From assembly GCF_000006405.1 (NCBI RefSeq), contig NW_003215453.1:661019-725018 (forward strand): a stretch of DNA of 64,000 nt, read 5' to 3'. This document shows, piece after piece, positions 2,654-53,800 of the stretch (position 1 is its first letter; every line of letters begins with the position of its first letter). Origin of the DNA: Perkinsus marinus ATCC 50983 (Eukaryota > Perkinsozoa > Perkinsida > Perkinsidae). Below the pieces are notes generated by a model that was not told the DNA's origin, did not search any database, and saw only the letters and a list, made by a program, of their open reading frames with translations. The translations under genes were made by a program, and so were the position numbers.

Positions 2654-5269
2654 TCAGCCCTTCTTGGTCACTTTAACTGCTCTCCAACCTGATCACCACC
2701 AACAGTGCTGACTAATCTCCTCACAAGTCTTTCACCTCGGCGGTGTTGGTCATTGGTCGACCTCCGCACTGGAGGGGGGCTCGAGAAGCCTCTTACCCCG
2801 AGCGCCTGGGCAAATCGGCTGACATCAGTGGTGACCTAAACATGTGGCAGCCGCTATGGCAATCACAGTCAAGTGTAGTGAAGGCCCACCTCCTGCACGC
2901 GGCCCGCGAACTGCCGCATAAGGAGCTCTGCCATGCCCGGCTCATCAAAAACGATATTCACTTTCTTGCCATCTAAAGTCTCCCCCCAAATATTATTCTC
3001 ACCAGACCTACGAGAAAAACTGTTGAGTTGACCGCTGTGTGATGAAGCCGCTTACCGGAGACTGTCATATAGTATATGCATTTCATGCCAGCTGGCTTGT
3101 TCTTCTGGAGTGGGATCAACCACCCCGACACGGTCCACCACCTCAGATCCCAGACGCGTCACTCGGACATTCAGATGATGTGGGAGGATCGCTGATGGAC
3201 CTGAGAAGGATCTTATTGAGCACATTGTATGAGAGAGCTCACCGTTGGTGGGGTGGGTAGCAATAGGAAGAACCTGAGGAACGGTAGTAACCAACATTCT
3301 GCGAGACGATCGTCCACTGTAGGTATTTACAAACAATGTCGGAAAATATCAATAAAAAATGAGCTCAGTTGAGAAAACCGAAAATATATTCTATAAGGGC
3401 TTACTGGTCTCGGAGTGAATCCTCCCCAAATAACAGATAGCATCTGAGCATCCCAAAAGGAGTTGCATATGATGTTTCCCTTGATAACATGAGGCGAATC
3501 TGACAGAGTCATGTACTCGACCACAACGATGACCGAACAACAACTCACTGAATCCTTCAAAGCAGCCAACGCGGACTCTCCATTTGCTCTCCTCCCCTCG
3601 GCTCGGCACCGGGCTGGAATTAACCGCATTACAGGTCAAGCGCCTCAGCAAGCTGCTAGCCTGGTCCTGGGCTGCCCGGATCTGTTACAATCAGCGTATA
3701 GGCAAATCAACTAGCTGCCTCTTACCGTGAGCATCCTCCCAGCCGTCTTGAGGTCTAGGAGATCATCAGCCACGCCAGGAGTGGCCTCTCGCTGGAGCTG
3801 TGAACAGCTGCCGAATCGTTCCTACTCACTAATCATCACACTGAAAGACATACGGTGCGTTACCAGAGGCTCGTCGGGCGCCGAAGTCATAACTTGAGGA
3901 CTACTTGACGATGATGAGGAAGAGGACTGAGGGGAAGAGCGAATCTACTGTGCAATCCTCAGAAGCGACTCACCGAAGAGGCCCAGTCGAAATGCACGAA
4001 GTTGAACCAGCCTGTGCTCGCACTGTTCGCCACGGAGGCGGTAGTGAACACCATCTGGGTGGTAGTGCTTGTCGTGCTAGTCGTAGTGATACGTGTGACA
4101 ACCTGAAGCCACTGATTCGAGTGTGAATTTTTTCACACCGTTACCGATGATGAGGATGACGCTTCCCAGCTGAAGTGGACAGCTGCTCCTCCGCTTTGGG
4201 TCTGGTAGTCTGACGGCGTAGGGGAGGGCATCTCCGACTACACAGAAGAGTTCACCCAACCACAATGTGCTCAACTACACGTGACCATAAGCGAATAACT
4301 AAGAATTCTCTTCGGTTTTTACACATTTCGAATCACGTGCAGAGAGAACTCTCTGGTTGAAAAAAGCAAGCATATCGCAATCGTGAACTCACCGGCCTGT
4401 ATCCACCCCATAGGATGGACAGTAGCTCCGCATCCCAGTAGGCTCCGCAAACAATACGATAAGCAACTCCGGCGGAGTCCCAGCCTGATAACACCAAGTC
4501 TGTGAACAGTCCGACATTGATTCCCCACCTCTAGCATCGCGACACTTCGTCTTAATCTGCCACTTGCCGCTTTTATCCAATTCAGTCGGTTGGCCATCCG
4601 CTCCATCACAGGACAGTGTCACCACGTCGGGGAAGCCAAATGGGGTCAGCTGCACCGGGCATGAGGTGATTTCCTGCTAACACTAACCTCACCTGCATAA
4701 TTCGACCAAGGTTGTCCACGGCGAGGTCCATGACTTCGTCCATTTCTGCTGCCACTGCGAACTCCGGCTGTGCGTATGTACAGCTGGGGAACCGCGTCTA
4801 GGTTAGAGAGAACATTCCAAGCACAAGAGAGAGCGATAGGCAGCCATACATGTGGCCGGGGTGAAGGAGGTGCGCCTGTCGGTAGTGGTTGGGGAGGTAA
4901 CTTCTCGCTTGCCGAGGCCTGGCTCGAACCAGAGGACTAAGCTCAGTGGATACATAGTCGCCCTGAATGCGGAGCACTTACCTGCCAAGAATACTGCTGG
5001 AAATAGCTCAACAATCCTGAGCTCCGTGTGGTCTGAGTCTGGGTCGTGGTAGTAGTCGTAGTGGTCGTTGTTGTAGTGCTCGTCGTAGGAGGTAGCTTCT
5101 GAGTGGTATCAAAATCAGCTAGCATTTCATAGATGCGAGGGTAGGTGATACGAAATTCGAACAAGTCAATATTGCAAATATTTGTCGATTGTTTGACAAT
5201 ATATAACTTTGAATCCAATCTACTCCTACAACAGCTACACTCGCTACAACTTGAGCTGAGACCACCACC

Positions 5270-5327
<58 letters not shown>

Positions 5328-5981
5328 GTGAACTCACCGGTTCATAGCCTCCCCACAGGACGGCGAACATCTCCGCTTCCCAATAAGATCCACATACGAC
5401 GTTGGCGTTATCATAGCTTCCCGGATCTGAACCAACAACATTCACAACCATGGCCACAACAAGCCGATTATGGGCGCCACTCACTTTCATTATTCTGGCA
5501 CTCCACAGGCACATACCAATTTCCTCGCCACGGTGTAGGATCTAGTGTAACTCTATCACAAGACATCGACCGGGTTCTTCTCCTGCCAACTGGTGCGACC
5601 TTTAAAACGTGATCGAGTTCCTGATCAGCGGACTTCTACCCACCTTCAGTTCACGACTAGCCGATACAGCGTCGAGTAGAGTATCATACGAGCCAGTGGT
5701 CATCGCGAATACACTTCCGAACTGCATACGGGTGCAGCTCCCAAAGCGACTCTGAGCAACAGTAACAAATCTCATCAAGATTCATCAATAGTACAGCCAC
5801 CTTAGGCGTAGCAGTGGTCGTAGTCGTCGTAGTCGTGGGAGCATGAGTAGTCGTTTGGGGAACCTATAGAGCTGCTGAGTTCAAGTTCAACCAACAGCCT
5901 GATTTTACCACTGCTCGGGAGCCATAGCCAGAGTAGTAGTAATACCAAGATCGCTGATGAACCCTCGCCGCTGTGGTGGTC

Positions 5982-6046
<65 letters not shown>

Positions 6047-8170
6047 TGTCGTAGTAGTGGTCGTAGTCTGCTGACATGAAGACATGAACTCGGAAAGTAG
6101 TCAGCTATTTTTACCGCTCTGTATCCGCCCCACTGTATTGAAAGTAGTTGAGCATCGTAATAAGATCCACAATAGATTCTCCCTTGACTGACAAACCCTT
6201 GACCTGTCCACAATTATCAACTTAGCAGAACCATACCAAACAAACACTCACCTTCAGCATCACCACACTTCACAGGCACCGACCACTGCTCCGGCTGGTA
6301 GGCAGCAGCAGCCCCATGCCTCACCGGAAGCTCCATAACTTGCTCACAGATCAGCGACATAACGCTATCCGCATAGGAAGGACGTACCTATCACTGCTTT
6401 GTAAGACTCCATCATGAATCTAAACTCACCTGTAGCTGTCTGCCATACACTACGAAATCAACGACCTCGTCTACTGCCTCGCCGTAGGACCAGTCGGGCC
6501 GCATGGTCTCGCAGGTGGGATACCGCGACTAGAGACACCATTATATAAGCAGCGACTTTAGATCAACTCACCCTGGGTTTCCGCGTGGTTGTAGTAGTTG
6601 TGCTGGTGGTAGTAGTAGTCGGCCGCGGCTGAAAGACAATGCGTGAGTCGTCATCAGAAAACATACGAGGCCTCACAGTAGGAGGGTTATTCCATGTATA
6701 TCCTCCAGAGGCATGGACCATCCACCACGAAGACTGTTGCCTATGAACCCTCGGTGCCTCAGTCGTAGTCGTAGTTGTGGGTGGCGGCTCGGTTGGTGGG
6801 GATCTCTTGAAAAAATGGCAATAACACATATCACCTCCAATGTGAGAAAATATGCACATATTGAACTACATGTGTCACGGACGATATGAAATTTCTGAGA
6901 AAATTTTGGGAAATTCTTATTGGTTTATGTACATTCTTACCCGAATTGTATAGTGAGCAAACTGCTGAGCTCAGGTAAGGAAAATGAACACATATTTCAC
7001 CATCCACACAATTGATCGATCCGGATAGTTCCCAAACTTACAGGCTCATAACCTCCCCACATGACTGCCAGCAGCTGGGCATCCCAATATGATCCACACA
7101 CTATACCCTCCTCCTCAGCGTAGGCATACATCCTAGATGAGGCTGCCATGTAGCAGCTGGCCGAGACGCGATAACGACCATCCTTCTCCTTGGCCGGTGG
7201 GGCTCGGACCGGATCACAGGTCAGGAACTCCTCAGAGCCACCCTTGGCACCCCAAGGTGATATCTACAACACTTCATCAACTACGGCTCATTCAAAGAGA
7301 GCTAGAGGGCGGCTTTTTCACTAACAATGTATTAGGAATCCTAAGCTCGGGAGAGTTTATTCACTATCCCACACACGAAACCAACGAAAATTCCGTAGAT
7401 CGTCCTAGTTGCAATCAACACACATAGTTGACTTTTTACACATCTTCCCATAGCAACCACCACCATCACCAAAGACTCACCCGCAGTCCGCGATTAGCGA
7501 ATGCGAAATCGGCTATCTGCTGAGGCATCTCATTGGGAGCAGACGGACGAACCACCTCCTGGCAGCTGCCAAGGAACGACTGAAAATGAACATAAGTGTC
7601 TTTCTATCGCCACTCCAAGCCCCACCCTCCGCGTAGTGGTAGTAGTGGTGGGCGTTGTCGTTGTCGTTGTTGTAGTCGTAGTTGAGGTGGTGACAGGCTG
7701 AAGCACACAACATCCCAGCTGACATGATAGAATATCTCATACCGCTGTGAAACCCGACCACGAGAAGTAATTGAACTTATACCACCAAGACGTGGTCGTC
7801 GGAACCGGTGTTGTTGTAGTAGTAGTCGTAGTAGTTGTGGTAGTAGTAGACGAGGTTCTACTCTCCTGCTTGTGGTACATAACAACGTATTGGAACCATC
7901 CAGAAGAGTGCGCTGCGCTCCCTTGGGTGCCAAGACCGGCCTTTCCCTGAAACATCGATCACAAGAATCGTTAACAATAACAACTCACTTTAAAACCACC
8001 CCAAGTCCTGGCCAGAATCTCAGCATCTTCGCGACGTCCGCATACCAACACTCCTCCACCAGACCGACCATGACCTGATCAATCACAACGTGGCGCTCTC
8101 CCAGTACTCGAATATATTTCCCCTATGCAAACTACAAGATCACACTATAATGTAATAGCACATGTATCAC

Positions 8171-8201
<31 letters not shown>

Positions 8202-11200
8202 CAAGTAGTGGCAGCAGTAGTGGTAGTAGTAGTAGTAACAGTAGTGGTGGCAGTAGTGGTAGTAGTAGTGGTAAGTCGAGACTGATTGTAAGTGGATGAA
8301 GTTAGTCAGAAGGGACGTTGAGGATCGTGGTGGACGATGGGAGTGTATCCGGAAGACTGCGTTGGATAAAGGGAAGCGGCATAAATTTCCTATTATTTGC
8401 AGCGCGCATGTTCCATAGTTGGATCCAAGCGCTCAATCAATGAATGAGTAGTGGTAATACACTATGGTGTACACGGGTGTCAAATCGATAGTGGGATAAA
8501 CTCCCTGATAGATGTTCACCCCAGGGTATGAAGCAGAACATGGCGATTCAGAGTCTACGAGTTTTCCCCTCTGGATCGTTTCAATTATAGTTGTATACAT
8601 ATATTGTAGTTAATATACGACTCCGAGTAGAATGTACAAAAATCAGGGAGAACTTCTGTCTTGGTATCAGCACTTGTAGTTGCCTTATACCCCACCTTGA
8701 GAGTCTCGACAGTCCACACGGACCAGCCAAGTAGCGCCCTTTCCTTCTGGAGGCACCTCCACTTCACCGCATCTCAACTGCAGTGGATGTATCATTGTAC
8801 CAGGCAACACCTAAGGCACAGACCTCACAACAGGAATGCAGGATATTTCAACCCTACCGTTAGCTCTCTCTTGCGTATGTCAAAGTCAATAACATCATCA
8901 GCCTCACCCTTTGAAAAATCGGCTATCAACTTTTTGCAGGACTGAAAGATTAGCGACCACCGTGGATCCGTCCTACAGTTGGAGGAATACACGTTTAGTT
9001 TTCTCGCTAATTATAGAAGTTTACCCGCGAGTTCGGGTAAAAATACACGAAAACCAACAAGAAAATCGAAAAACTTCCATATTGTCACCAACATATGTAG
9101 TTGACTTCGTGCGTATTCTCCCCCACTGCGCCATACCACGAGGAGATCAAGCAAGCCGTACTCACCTCGCCCCCTGACGGTGGGGAATCTGTCAATATCT
9201 GATCGCCATGCTTCTGGGAAAGAAGACTGTAGTGTAAAGGATGCAGTAGAGACTTACGTCTTTTCTCCACGAGCCTTGAGAGTAGGTGTACCACGATCCA
9301 CTGCTGCTACTATCGACTCCATCTGGCAGCCGCATGCTATTGCCAGCCATGCCAGGGAGAGAGTATAGGCCAGGAACCCAGGAGGGATCCTGAAAATGCA
9401 CGCTGTGAGGATCGAACCTGGGACCTCGATGACTCACATCAAACCCGCCCCACTGCTTGGCCAAAGTTCTTGCTTCATACTCCGAGTCGCATCGGATCTT
9501 CCCCTCCACCGTCTCAGCATCAGCGCCACCTCCAATAGTGCACTTCACCGGAATCAGCCAATCGTTGAGGTCAACCCGATGCTTGGGCCTGACCGCCACC
9601 TCCTCACACGCGGCGACTTCCGCCTCCTTCTTGTAACGCCTCCGAACCTGAGCCGTTTCCCTCCAACAAGATTCCCACCCAGAGACATGCCTTGAATCTC
9701 CGTCCTGGTGTATCAAAAGCGGTTATTTTCCCATACCGATAACTATGCCGAGGGCGAAACTCTCGACAAGTGCCAAAGCCCGCCTGAAAATATTGGAAAT
9801 CACCACCACCACCCGAGGAACCACTGCCTCTCACCTCGTCAGTGGGCACGAAAATTCCACCATTCCCCTCCACTTCGGATGACGACGCAACCTGTCAGTG
9901 TCAACCAGGACCCAATAATCACTCGGGGAGTCCCTACCTCCTCATTGTCCGGTGAGAGCCTGTCATCGTCATCAACAGTGTCACCTTCCGATTCATCAGC
10001 CTGAGGAGTCTGGCAATATGAACCATATTTCGAAGTTACTTTTCAACGTCGAGAATACAACAATGTAGAGTTTCTGAAATTGCAGTACTCAATTCACGTG
10101 AAAAAATTCGTTACTGTTCTTTCAATTACAAAACTCAAAGAGTATAAAACTATGTATATCATCTTCTTACAGTATTTGTTCACGCCTTCGTACTTTCGAG
10201 TTTGGCAACAGTTCGATTCACGCTGTGAAATTAAACAACTCGTCTCTTCTCCCCACACCTACCTTCAGCCCCTCACCGTCCGCGTTACCCTCCGAGGAAT
10301 GCCTTAACTTAGCTTCCTCCTCTTGGGTCTCCTGCATGAGTCCGATACCCCCAACCCCACATCTCAGAGTGCCCACCTCATCTCCTGCAGAGAAATCCTC
10401 CTCAACATTTGATGCAAGTCGAGCAGCAGCCGTATGATCGTCCTAAACCAACAAGGATAATTCCCGTCAAGTGAGAAGAACCCCCTACCTCAGCGTCGTG
10501 GTCCGTAGTGAAATCTCCTACATCTTGAAAGGTCGGCAAGCTCTCAGGGATAACATACTCGTCAGCTTCTGTCTCCGGAACCTGTAATGGTAGACAAATG
10601 AATGGTAGTACAAAGAATCACCAACCCCACCTCTTGAGACCGCTCTCCTTCCTCACTGCGTAATGCTCGGCTGGTGCTATGACCACCCTCTGTCTCAGCA
10701 CCAGCCGAATCATCCTCAACAATAGGAACCGCTTGCGAGACCTGATGTCAACCAGCTTTCCTCAACTCCGAATCCGAGTAGGAGTGTACAGAAACCAAAG
10801 AAAATTTCCCAGAAAAATTCCCTTAGAATTTCCGATTGTCACCGACACATTAAGTGACCATGTGCATACCATGACCATTCCTCGTACTCCATGCCACGAT
10901 AGTCAACATCCGCGACAATAATGGCCTCACCTGAGGATAATTTCCCCATTCAGAAGCATCTGAGTCATCGTCCGATGCCGAGGCCGGTTCGACGTCGTTG
11001 CTAGAGGCCTGTGCGAAGAGAATATGTTGCCAGTCAGCGCTCGAGGTGAGTAGTCTTGCTGGAACCGACCAGTTTCCGCGATGATGGAAAACACTTATCG
11101 ATTAATTTCATCATCTACACACTTGAAATTTTTCGGACGATTACTGGTAGGATTTTCATATTAGACCCTATCAGAAATTACTGTCGACAAAATTCGAGAG

Positions 11201-12706
11201 GGCTGGAATTGAATGCTTTTCTCTCTCTCTCTCAACCTCAATTTTCGTGTTGCGACAAGTCATGTGTCCACAGTTTGATATCACTCCTGATACCGACTTG
11301 TGATACTCTCTACAGGAAGAGCCCCCATCGACGTATAGAGAAAGCCCATGCTTGAGTCGAAGCCACACCCACCTCTTGAGTTCCTTCCCCTGTTTCCATT
11401 TCTTGAGGCCCAGATGCGGGAGCCTAGAAGGAGACAACCATAAACTGTACAAGGTAAGTGAAGTCCCCAACTTACCTCGTCGTCATCTCCTCCTCCACTA
11501 TCAGTTTCCCCACCAGGAGTCTCCTCAGGAGGGACCACATCTCCATCTGGACTGTCCTCATCCTCGCCAGTGTCACCAAATTCAGTAGTTGATGACTTAG
11601 CGCTGCTATCGGGCTCAGCAGCGCTATGACTATCCTTCACCTCATCGCCACTATCATCGACTCGTTCACTAGACTGTGCCTCCTCACCCGCTTCCCCCGC
11701 TGTGAAAGGGGCTCCCCATTTCTCAGCAAAGTAAGCCGCATCCTCTTGGGTTTCAAAATTTATCACGAACAGGAATTTCTTCTTTGGGTTTTCCGGCCTG
11801 GCGCACTTCGCCTCTACGAATTTCCCCCAGGGCTCCGCGGAAATATCATCACAATGAAAGGTCTCCTGCAGATCCCACAAATGGGCCTTCTCTTCCGCCA
11901 ACCTCAACAACCGTACGCCAGCGTCACCATCACGATGAGCGTGCGTCACCACAAACTTGTCGGGATCCGAGCCGATCCGAACATACCGTACTAGACTTGC
12001 GTAATTCACCTAAACCACCAAGAGCAACTTCCAGAAACTTCTCACATAACCACTAATTCCTATATACTCCATGAAAAACTACCACATATGTTAAAGAACA
12101 ACAACTAAAGAGTGACAGAATAATCAAAAAAAAGCTCCGAAAAATCTCAAGTCGTCAAATATCCCCCACCTCGCCGAAGGCCTCAACGACATTAGCCCTC
12201 GTTCTTTCCAACACTGCATCCCAATCTTCGTGGACTTGCTCCTCATTGGGTATCTCCTTGGTGAGCTCGACGGGTGTTTTATACCGATGCAGGTTACCCC
12301 ACACCTCCGCGAACTCCATCGCATCTTCGTGTGTGGGAAAATGAAAATACACCGAACGTTTATCCGCTGGTTTTCCCCCGGGTTTTGTGCAAATTGCCGT
12401 AGCAATGTCACTAGATGGAGCACGTGCCATCATACTGCAGTAGTAGGGCTGTACGACCCTCTCTGTGAAAGAGCTCCTCAGTTTCACCCGCATGGCCCGA
12501 CTCGCGCCGCGCTTGAACGCTGTGAGGACTTCCCATTTGGTCGGGTCGTCACCAATGTGAGCGTATAATACCTTCGAGGCTAGGTTCGGCGGGTCCAGTT
12601 TCTGAACAGGAAACCATACCACACCATGGTCTGATCGTAATCTTACTCCGTTTGCTGTAGCGACTAGAGCCACCACTACGGCCCTCAGGCCTGATGAAAA
12701 ACACAT
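2654..12706 (-). CDS. Giant secreted modular WGG-repeat / Thr-rich protein
   Basis: About 44 exons join into one open frame of about 1,877 codons, from ATG 12706 to the TGA at 2656-2654. A signal peptide (MCFSSGLRAVVVALVATANG) is followed by two divergent ~95-residue domains (exons 12706-12170 and 12009-11476). Then come eight acidic Ser/Glu/Asp exons (11423-9835) and seven copies of a module ending in C-x(4)-A-x(5)-WGG(Y/F), for example CGSYWDAQLLAVMWGGYEP. Thr-rich linkers and a short exon with an FPSC-type cysteine motif separate the modules. Module borders are phase 0 and the intron inside a module is phase 1. There is no transmembrane segment or GPI signal at the C-terminus (ends VTKKG), so the protein is probably released or wall-associated and heavily O-glycosylated on its Thr tracts. 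I do not recognise the domain in any named family. Exon 10442-10263 may hold an extra 45-nt in-frame intron. The exon at 3273-3243 is the weakest. Confidence 0.75.
5260..5328. repeat. Intronic CAC/CAA trinucleotide array
   Basis: (CAC)n runs into (CAA)n on the plus strand, inside the WGG-gene intron 5337-5099, directly after the exon ending WGGYEP. It is non-coding in the model. Confidence 0.8.
5981..6060 (-). repeat. Coding trinucleotide array (ACT)n encoding poly-Thr
   Basis: A near-perfect GTA/ACT array lies within the linker exon 6070-5909 of the WGG gene. It encodes an uninterrupted run of about 30 threonines, followed by ARVHQRSWYYYY. It is a microsatellite under coding constraint and so a likely length polymorphism. 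Confidence 0.8.
6838..7009 (-). repeat. MITE-like element, family 1, reversed copy
   Basis: About 170 bp, reverse complement of the CAGTGTTGGAATATG...CACACTG element. It contains the diagnostic GTACA..AAACCAATAAGAA and ACACATGTAGTT blocks. It sits in the WGG-gene intron 7041-6806. Confidence 0.8.
8169..8271. repeat. Imperfect TAG/GTA trinucleotide array in an intron
   Basis: The array lies in the unusually long (about 620 nt) phase-1 intron 8695-8075 that splits one WGG module. Expansion of the array partly explains the intron's length. Confidence 0.8.
8976..9128 (+). repeat. MITE-like element, family 1, forward copy
   Basis: Begins CAGTTGGAGGAATACACG and ends CCCCCACTG, with the TTGTCACCAACATATGTAGTTGAC block. 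It sits in the WGG-gene intron 9165-8942. Confidence 0.75.
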
Positions 12707-50814: not shown

Positions 50815-53800
50815 ATGGCTCGCAGATCGCATTCTTTCAGATCGTTTGAGCCCGCACAAGTCTCCCCTAGACTTAAGAGGAGGTCTACCACGGGTGGTGT
50901 CCCCAACCGTCCGGCCCGGCCGGTATTGTTCAGTAGAGGCACGGGCAACGCCGACATACGGGATGTCCATGCAATGTGTTGTGATGCATGCCCGTGTAAA
51001 AACGGGGGTAAGGCTGTGTGCTGCGAGCATTGCTCACTGAAGGATGAGAACCGCCATAAGAAACGGGCTGATCGAGGTGAGTTACTCATCATCCACTTTT
51101 GTGATTTCCGAACCGAACGGTTTGATTCTGAGAATACGACTATAGACTGTGACCCGTATGTGAGGAAATGTGAATCGATTCACATGGTAGTCACGATGTA
51201 GCCTGATGAACTATAGTTAATTGGGGAAGTTATTTCTTCGCACTGCGTGTCTGAACTTATTTAGGGTGAATGTATGTGATGGTTACTCAGGTGAAGTGAA
51301 GGACACAGCCTGCAACACTGACTGGGAGGGCGAGGGGGTCACCAAGGGGGGTCTCTCTAATGCAGTAAAGATGAGGAGAAAGAGGCCTCGGAATAGCTCG
51401 TAGGCCTCATCAGCCCCTCCTCAACTGTATGTCTAGTCTCAGGCCATCTGATGAAAATGGACAAGAGGGCCGACGACGTTCATCTGAGGATGTCTGCCAC
51501 CACATTGGGCCTTGGCGTGGAGAAGTGCCACCGAGGTAGGGAAAGGGGGGGTCTTGCTGATGATGATCGTGGTCAGACCTACTCCGCCAGAGGATGCTGC
51601 TGTGCCTGAGCGTATTGCTAGGCCGGAAATGAGGAAGGCAGGATCACGAGTTCGAGGGGAGGTGGGGGCCCGCGCACAGGAGCATCATCATGATGATGAT
51701 TATCAGCAGCAGCTCCATCATAGTTCCCAGACTAGTTATGAGGTAAGTGATCGAGCCGACGCTCCTGTGTCGGGACTAGTGGGGTAGGGTACTTTCCAAT
51801 CGCTGTTGGATGAGGCGGAGGCTGCGGTGACGGAGGTTGTGAATCAGCATGAACGCAGACACCACCAGCAACAGTCGCATCGGGCACATAGACGAGCACA
51901 TCATCGGGGTGGTCATAGAGAAGAACGCAGGAAAAAGGAAACTGTAGGTCTCGGCGAATTGGATTGGGACATGCATGTTCAGGGTGTCCCTCGACAGGGA
52001 GGCAGCCTGAGCTCGGCGGATGATCTACAACCCGACCAACCTCAGGGTAAGGGCACCAGCTACGACAGTAGTATTAGTGACCATCTGACCCTAGTAGTAG
52101 TAGTAGTAGTAGTAGTAGCTTGACATAGCTACCATGCTCAGAGTATAGAGTTTCGTGCAGTTTCGTGAGACCGACAGTAATCTTTAGGAAGCCACGGTGC
52201 CGATAATTAGTTTTAGAGCTACTTGGCCTTGTCGGTAAATATCTCTAATGCACGGTTACAGCGATATAGTTTTGAATCGCCCCATGATCCCTGTGAAAAA
52301 TTGTCATTCAAAATTGTTAGTGATATGGAGTGATAACCTTTTCGGTCAGCGGTGATAGTAGCCGTAATGTGGTATCATGTTCCTGTTGTTCCGTATAGAT
52401 ATTGGAGGTAGAGAGATAAGGAGGACTGAGCGTCGAAAACATTTAGAAGATAGGAGACAGGCCGAACTGCTACGGACAGGCAGGCGTCCTCTGCTCGGGT
52501 CTATTGGGGTGATAGAGAATCTCAGGTCCGGTTGGAGGCCATTCCAATCCAGTTGAGGAGTCTTATGAAGATCCTGATGAGACTGCGAGGTGGGTTGGGA
52601 GTAGCTAGAGTTATAATACGTATTTGCTTTCCGCAGCTGAGCTCGGGAGTTTTCATCATTTAGAAGAATTTATGAACGACTTAAGGTAGCCAATTGGAAT
52701 TTTCCAAAAATTTTCCCACAATGCTTCAATTTTTATAATCGATTGTTATTTTCCAATACTATTAGTCATCGTTTTAATCGTCTACATACTATGATCAAAT
52801 ACATTGCTATACCTGAAACTAACAGCTGATTGTGCTTTAGGCATTTGTCCTTCGATGAAGATCTCTCATTTGATGTGGCAGTTGAGGCTGAGCCTGACTT
52901 CATCGTCCCTGTTATGGATGAGGAGGATACTATATCGGACATACCTCTACCACATGATCAACCCCAAAGGGGGGGCCAGCACACATTGGAGGAGATATCG
53001 TTTACGAATCAACATCGAAGAGGAGGAAGAGGCAACAAGATGGTGGATACTTCGGTGAGTACTTCCTCTAGTGTGTTGCTCTCCTGTTTCCAAGGAGTGT
53101 CTTGGTTTGCTTCTATTTACTGTCTTATCCATAGAGCAGTTGTTTATGTCGCTACTATTTCATGTACAGATTCCGTAAATTGCGAGTGAATCGTCGTTGG
53201 TATTGTTGTCGGGCTCAGTTACAAGTTGGACCGGAGCTCTATCCTCCAGTGCCAGCTCCTACCCGGAAGAAGACGACTCAGCGTAGGAGAAATAGAGATC
53301 CAGAGAGCAGTGATGGAACTCTTGAGGAAGAATTTGTAGTTGTCGGGTTATAACCCTTGATCGGAAGGTAATCTTGGCAGGAACAACACCGGTACGGCAG
53401 AGGGGCTCCGAGATCTACTCGAAGGGCTCCTCTTGATATCCTCAAGGGTGAAAGAATCATCTATAAGCGAACTGATAGTGGCGATGATCTCATGATTGGA
53501 GTCCTTACCCGACACAAGCATGATAAAAAACGGAGTAGGAGCAACGGTATCTCGAGGATGACCATATGGTGTTAGATGATCATTCACTTGAGGGCGGCCG
53601 CAGCAGACGATCGTCAGCGGTCGAGCGTGCGTCCTTCCACAAGAACAGGGCCAGTCAAGAGAGTTACGATCCCAATCAATGTGAGGTCGGCCTTGGAAGC
53701 GATGCTCATTTCATTAGTGTTCAGCAGCAGCCATGCGAGCACCAGTGTCGGAGGGGTCATCCCGAGCTCAGCAGAAAAGGAAGGGTCAAGTTGTGGAGAA

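Follow-up and report, generated by a model that had tools for sequence, protein, structure and literature searches.

Members of the PH superfold (PH, Ran-binding, EVH1, and PTB domains) are known mostly as intracellular domains, and within the cell EVH1 and PTB domains have aromatic or proline peptides among their ligands. In secreted proteins, Thr-rich stretches are commonly O-glycosylated. The gene described here, from Perkinsus marinus ATCC 50983, may bring these two features together: its large product should be secreted, and copies of an undescribed domain with a predicted PH-like fold are spaced in it by mostly Thr-rich linkers. The gene lies on the minus strand of a 64,000 nt stretch (NCBI RefSeq assembly GCF_000006405.1, contig NW_003215453.1, positions 661,019 to 725,018 of the forward strand), which is called the window below and to which coordinates refer unless another contig is named. 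Perkinsus species cause serious disease in bivalves. Perkinsus trophozoites bind the lectins SBA and PNA and therefore display GalNAc and Gal at their surface, which is also bound by the oyster galectins CvGal1 and CvGal2 (PMC7053492). In the parts of that article used here, the parasite ligands of the galectins are described as sugars and their protein carrier is left unnamed; the present protein is a concrete candidate.

The locus codes for a real and conserved secreted protein, and its repeated domain is absent from the searched libraries; its function we infer. A single open frame of 46 exons runs from an ATG at 12706, with an in-frame TGA immediately 5′ of it, to a stop codon which ends at 2668, and specifies 1,826 residues (exon borders were placed by hand and tested by script). 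The initial annotation had counted 44 exons in this region and put the product at about 1,877 residues; the placement stands and both counts are replaced. Splice sites are GT-AG in 44 of the 45 introns and GC-AG in the one between exons 11 and 12. This GC-AG intron (9648–9690, in module 1) is present in both haplotypes. Intron sizes are 42–88 nt in 34 cases and 108–621 nt in the remaining 11, in agreement with the published range for Perkinsus (39–1622 bp, most under 100, in the part of PMC3101222 used here); the 11 longer introns may hold additional uncalled exons. The introns are in phase 0 (38), phase 1 (6), or phase 2 (1). As initially described, every module set is flanked by phase-0 introns and an internal phase-1 intron occurs in five of the seven modules (2, 4, 5, 6, and 7, but not 1 and 3). 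It is taken as the same, homologous intron in all five because it always lies four codons past the third Cys. The features are as follows, modules being placed by motif and exon model.

12647–12706, minus strand: signal-peptide-like start, about residues 1–20 of exon 1 (upstream in-frame TGA; hydropathy)
12281–12592, minus strand: N-terminal domain 1, in exon 1 (12706–12170), a probable domain copy with the second and third Cys only
11695–12009, minus strand: N-terminal domain 2, start of exon 2 (12009–11476), six strands and a C-terminal helix in an AlphaFold2 (AF2) model
9835–11694, minus strand: acidic zone, remainder of exon 2 through exon 10 (composition)
9438–9783, minus strand: module 1, exons 11–12 with the GC-AG intron between them, no phase-1 intron
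9166–9389, minus strand: linker 1, exons 13–14, Ser/Gly-rich, no Thr tract
7989–8941, minus strand: module 2, exons 15–17, internal phase-1 intron of 621 nt
7626–7946, minus strand: linker 2, exons 18–19, Thr tracts and the aromatic cluster SWWYKFNYFSW
7042–7579, minus strand: module 3, exons 20–21, no phase-1 intron
6572–6805, minus strand: linker 3, exons 22–23
6115–6528, minus strand: module 4, exons 24–26, phase-1 intron
5801–6070, minus strand: linker 4, exons 27–28, a 32-Thr tract and the cluster SWYYYYSGY
5338–5751, minus strand: module 5, exons 29–31, phase-1 intron
4850–5098, minus strand: linker 5, exons 32–33
4393–4797, minus strand: module 6, exons 34–36, phase-1 intron
3864–4102, minus strand: linker 6, exons 37–38, Thr/Ser-rich, with the cluster WFNFVHFDW
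3405–3821, minus strand: module 7, exons 39–41, phase-1 intron
2890–3316, minus strand: C-terminal region, exons 42–44, tentative Cys-free domain copy (last strand and helix only)
2668–2835, minus strand: C-terminal tail, exons 45–46 and stop

The motif C-x5-A-x6-WGG[YF] matches seven times on the minus strand of the whole window and not once on the plus strand, which served as the comparison in place of shuffles. With it, the seven Cys/WGG modules first recognized are recovered; the spacing then given (C-x4-A-x5-WGG[YF]) has no match, the true gaps being one residue longer each. The seven modules align end to end with one another as exon A, which carries the Cys motif, followed by exons B and C. 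What had been read as a one-exon Cys motif separating the modules is actually exon A, the N-terminal exon of each module. Ten columns are invariant across the seven modules, four of them Cys, and the modules are mutually 22–39% alike. Two divergent N-terminal domains had also been seen, and they are borne out: a genome search with domain 1 as query retrieves domain 2, with E 6.6e-8 at this locus and 3.4e-8 in the second haplotype. In the alignment, modules and domains 1 and 2 have in common a conserved Arg strand, both inner Cys, and a strand–helix–W end. All seven modules have the first and the fourth Cys, and domains 1 and 2 lack both.

Confinement of the module to this protein is not supported. 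It recurs at three or more other loci of the genome: chained protein searches found family members at C223 (haplotype C267), C70 (with C229), C79, and C280. The matches on C79 and C280 are both near contig ends, and these two may be pieces of one gene; for this reason, and because a neighboring gene is only a probable member, the count is set at at least three. Searches were made in six frames, exon by exon, on the best candidates, so that copy numbers are lower bounds. At an independent E-value (iE) below 0.01, the final profile, which was seeded with some of the copies counted and for which a domain split across two exons was counted once, gives at least nine domains at C223, at least nine at C70, at least six at C79, and at least two at C280. 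When judged by profiles omitting them, the seven modules, C223, C70, C79, and C280 all match and have the second and third Cys and the strand–helix–W end.

How firmly the copies are linked differs between the groups. A profile of the modules only finds the other loci (best iE 2.5e-8) and, in the six-frame set, domain 2 at iE 0.41; against the spliced protein as the only sequence searched, domain 2 reaches 0.0012. Domain 1 is not found by this profile. A profile of domains 1 and 2 with eight C223 copies finds the modules (best 5.8e-6), and profile–profile comparison gives a probability of 98.2. Reversed-sequence controls gave two matches (0.18 and 0.31) in one search direction and none in the other. 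With C223 alone as the leave-out profile, the modules (best 2.6e-5), C79 (1.2e-7), C280 (6e-7), domain 1 (iE 0.0011), and domain 2 (0.017) are found, the best reversed match being 1.0. When modules and C223 are combined, domain 1 comes up at 0.013 and domain 2 at 0.027, with a best reversed match of 1.5; a profile restricted to domains 1 and 2 retrieves no convincing other copy (best 0.18, reversed 0.54). On these profile comparisons we firmly regard the modules, C223, C70, C79, and C280 as one domain family, of which the N-terminal domains 1 and 2 are probably members. A profile of 24 sequences marks nine copies on the spliced protein, copies which the profile itself includes. A tenth, C-terminal copy is tentative: the region gives iE 0.0016 when searched alone, 0.12–0.13 with negative scores on the whole protein, and 0.087 in six frames, while its reversed control gave no match or a negative score.

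In a tree of 24 copies over 59 columns, the seven modules form their own branch (ultrafast bootstrap 85; 79 once re-rooted), and a pairing of domains 1 and 2 has support 71. This fits a multiplication of exon sets within the gene, the mode of growth which the initial annotation had suggested; the short alignment keeps the support moderate.

The domain could not be placed in any described sequence family when it was first noticed, and the same holds after searching: the 24 domain sequences have no credible match in Pfam, NCBIfam, or PHROGs. None of the 24 is matched by the Pfam-A profiles of PH, RanBD, EVH1, or PTB at E 1, and none by FAINT (PF04385); a FAINT search of the whole genome was also empty, though control genomes gave no signal either. 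A profile search of PDB sequences returned only two chains of other kinds (E 1.2 and 1.5), and a Pfam scan of raw exon frames gave sub-threshold noise alone. Titles and abstracts yielded no paper on this gene or domain in a literature search largely confined to journals outside subscription.

A fold is nevertheless suggested for domain 2, whose AF2 model (predicted local distance difference test, pLDDT, 85.0; predicted template modeling score, pTM, 0.76) shows six strands followed by a helix at the C-terminal end. For domain 1, a single-sequence AF2 model came out at low confidence. The 50 VIA-align matches listed for the domain 2 model are all PH-superfold, as judged by their titles and by what is known of the proteins, and cover residues 1 to 98–104 of its 104. 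In the PH superfold, about seven strands form a sandwich or barrel which a C-terminal helix closes; the model, with six strands and a helix, is to be set beside it. Domain 2 is likely PH-superfold-like. For the modules such a fold is predicted, a step which rests on the domain 2 model and on moderate sequence homology. By position, the second and third Cys sit on neighboring strands of the model, and two disulfides per module may be expected, pairing Cys 2 with 3 and Cys 1 with 4. Somewhat unlikely, in our estimation, is that the module has a fold of its own and that the PH likeness reflects a common strand-and-helix arrangement or is true of domain 2 only. The listed matches are uniformly PH-superfold over nearly the full model, and the Arg strand, inner Cys, and strand–helix–W end are common to the modules and domains 1 and 2; both points speak against it.

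The remaining parts of the protein are of distinct composition. An acidic zone had been claimed and is confirmed, with 31% D/E against 4% K/R over 271 residues. Export had been proposed as well, and hydropathy agrees: the windows with the highest values start at residues 1–11, as in a signal peptide, and everywhere else in the protein values are at most 1.1. Because no strongly hydrophobic stretch follows the N-terminus, the product is read as secreted and soluble, as it should be from its sequence. The poly-Thr linkers of the initial annotation hold for five of six: linkers 2–6 contain 13 to 44 Thr each, whereas linker 1 contains 2 and has no Thr tract, and linker 6 is without long runs (three Thr at most). 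Aromatic clusters are present too, but inside the linkers rather than at their ends. They exceed shuffled sequences in four of six linkers, the observed value being reached by 8, 1, 31, and 23 of 5,000 shuffles (the 8 belong to linker 2, with 7 aromatics within 10 residues), and are not above chance in the other two (491 and 875 of 5,000). The hydrophobic start, by hydropathy, and the Thr-rich linkers 2–6 give the protein the mucin-like combination of a signal-peptide-like start with long Thr/Ser/Pro tracts. A Thr-coding triplet repeat at 8160–8272, within the long intron of module 2, may be the remnant of a linker exon.

A copy of exon 1 at C71:91305, with 97% identity at the protein level, opened the comparison with a second haplotype; from its sequence, the C71 copy is an allele or haplotig. 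The upstream flank is collinear across 5,475 bp (95.7%). The comparison covers 31 of the 46 exons, beyond which the contig reads N. Of 4,029 exon positions compared, 116 are mismatched, and of 3,178 intron positions, 215; among the 31 exons, 63 coding changes are nonsynonymous and 53 synonymous (ratio of nonsynonymous to synonymous change per site, pN/pS, 0.37). Indels are a multiple of three in all five coding cases and in 3 of 12 intron cases. The compared part of the gene is under purifying selection. Four of the five coding length differences fall within Thr and acidic tracts. The acidic zone differs in length, in frame; in linker 4 of the other haplotype, exon 27 is shorter by 48 nt and exon 28 longer by 18 nt. 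Splice sites are conserved except for the donor after exon 27, which is GT here and GC in the other haplotype. The intron between exons 8 and 9 (10010–10262) has 0 mismatches in 253 positions, compared with the 215 of 3,178 over introns overall; it may be a tract of conversion or an element under constraint.

For the protein as a whole we prefer, at slightly less than an even chance, a multivalent, soluble, secreted protein in which PH-like beads on Thr-rich linkers do a coat or adhesive job. The binding beads would be the seven modules, the two diverged N-terminal copies, and perhaps one C-terminal copy, all of them versions of a single undescribed domain in which six strands are predicted to precede a C-terminal helix that finishes in W-G. 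Mostly Thr-rich linkers, probably O-glycosylated at Thr and stiff, would space the module beads and present the aromatic patches, and the acidic zone would set the N-terminal copies apart from the modules. Many copies of a ligand could thus be bound at once at the cell surface, in a wall, or in shed material. It weighs against this account that the leave-out profiles make the link between N-terminal domains and modules only moderate.

We consider it unlikely that the protein is instead structural, its beads and aromatic patches cross-linking a resting or sporangial wall without any host-binding role. The many Cys, Thr-rich tracts, aromatic patches, and acidic zone would suit cross-linking, and an anchor would be unneeded; a bulk wall polymer is disfavored, however, by the single locus (two haplotypes) found for the gene and by modules which are only 22–39% alike.

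Less probable still is a shed mucin-like decoy, whose linkers would carry GalNAc-type O-glycans bound by host galectins and whose beads would be mere spacers. The galectin binding, the PNA and SBA staining, and the carrier left unnamed in the cited part of PMC7053492 are in its favor. So are ricin-lectin-domain genes at two loci, L053 1012–1875 (C34:598960) and L052 (C190:16748), one of them with PF00652 at E 2.5e-9, which are possible O-GalNAc transferases. At one locus the lectin part is preceded by an exon that looks like the end of a GT27 enzyme, a lead only, since this candidate catalytic exon has no Pfam or PDB match. Selection across the compared exons and the keyed Cys exceed what spacers need, and no Thr runs of at least 7 were seen beside domains of the other loci, among the loci scanned. 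The sole such run outside the main gene among them is a long Thr-coding triplet repeat in L035 (6086–6184), on the contig that also carries the C223 family gene and 5 kb from the nearest domain there.

The analogy with PH-superfold domains that bind peptides allows a bolder extension of the coat or adhesive reading, which we regard as a long shot: the domain would have been exported, locked by disulfides, and multiplied, and linker aromatic patches would dock in bead grooves of a self-assembled extracellular coat. That the gene is a chance chain of open stretches or decayed, for which one could cite the room for other exons in 11 of 45 introns above 100 nt and the differences between haplotypes in tract length and exon 27 donor (GT versus GC), is refuted in substance by the seven motifs, the phases, the homologous intron places, the in-frame indels, and a pN/pS of 0.37.

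Downstream lies one further gene.

1–1774 (and L032 8794–9917), minus strand: next gene downstream, running beyond the window, with a signal-peptide-like exon (1774–1715), acidic exons, and a domain-like stretch (330–79)

This gene is a probable second family member. With profiles omitting them, its three domain-like stretches score weakly, at 0.05, 0.054, and 0.94 (0.074, 0.39, and 0.46 with a stricter set), and a search with two of them retrieved only themselves. A putative domain fragment at 51183–51260 of the window (iE 0.25) was not upheld by translations.

Two further observations concern the genome. A Rieske exon is identical to PDB 9fq7, which we take to be from Perkinsus marinus, in 85 of 86 aligned residues (197.6 bits, against 128.9 for the next entry). 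The spliced leader CCGTAGCCATCTTGGCTCAAG, of the dinoflagellate/Perkinsus type, occurs at 34 places, 17 per strand, and the reversed pattern at none. It reads ATCTTGG, unlike both leader types given for P. marinus in the part of PMC3101222 used here (AUUCUGG or AUCUGG).

For the unnamed domain family, present at four or more loci, boundaries are now defined, a profile exists, and a fold is predicted, and the family can be used for annotation and for searches in other alveolates. Three described systems come closest. FAINT (DUF529) of Theileria, also an alveolate parasite, is likewise a domain restricted to its lineage and multiplied in secreted proteins; the present domain differs by its Cys and WGG pattern, the protein by its Thr linkers, and there is no FAINT match among the domain sequences. 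Mucin-like and Thr-rich surface glycoproteins have the same Thr/Ser/Pro tracts between folded parts and a signal-peptide-like start, whereas here folded domain accounts for much of the protein, the linkers contain the aromatic patches, and glycosylation is presumed. Relative to the PH superfold, with which it has no detectable sequence relation, the bead domain would be secreted and tandemly repeated, its modules ending in W-G-G and bearing Cys pairs; if true, a PH-like domain that is secreted and carries disulfides would be an unusual use of a mainly intracellular fold.
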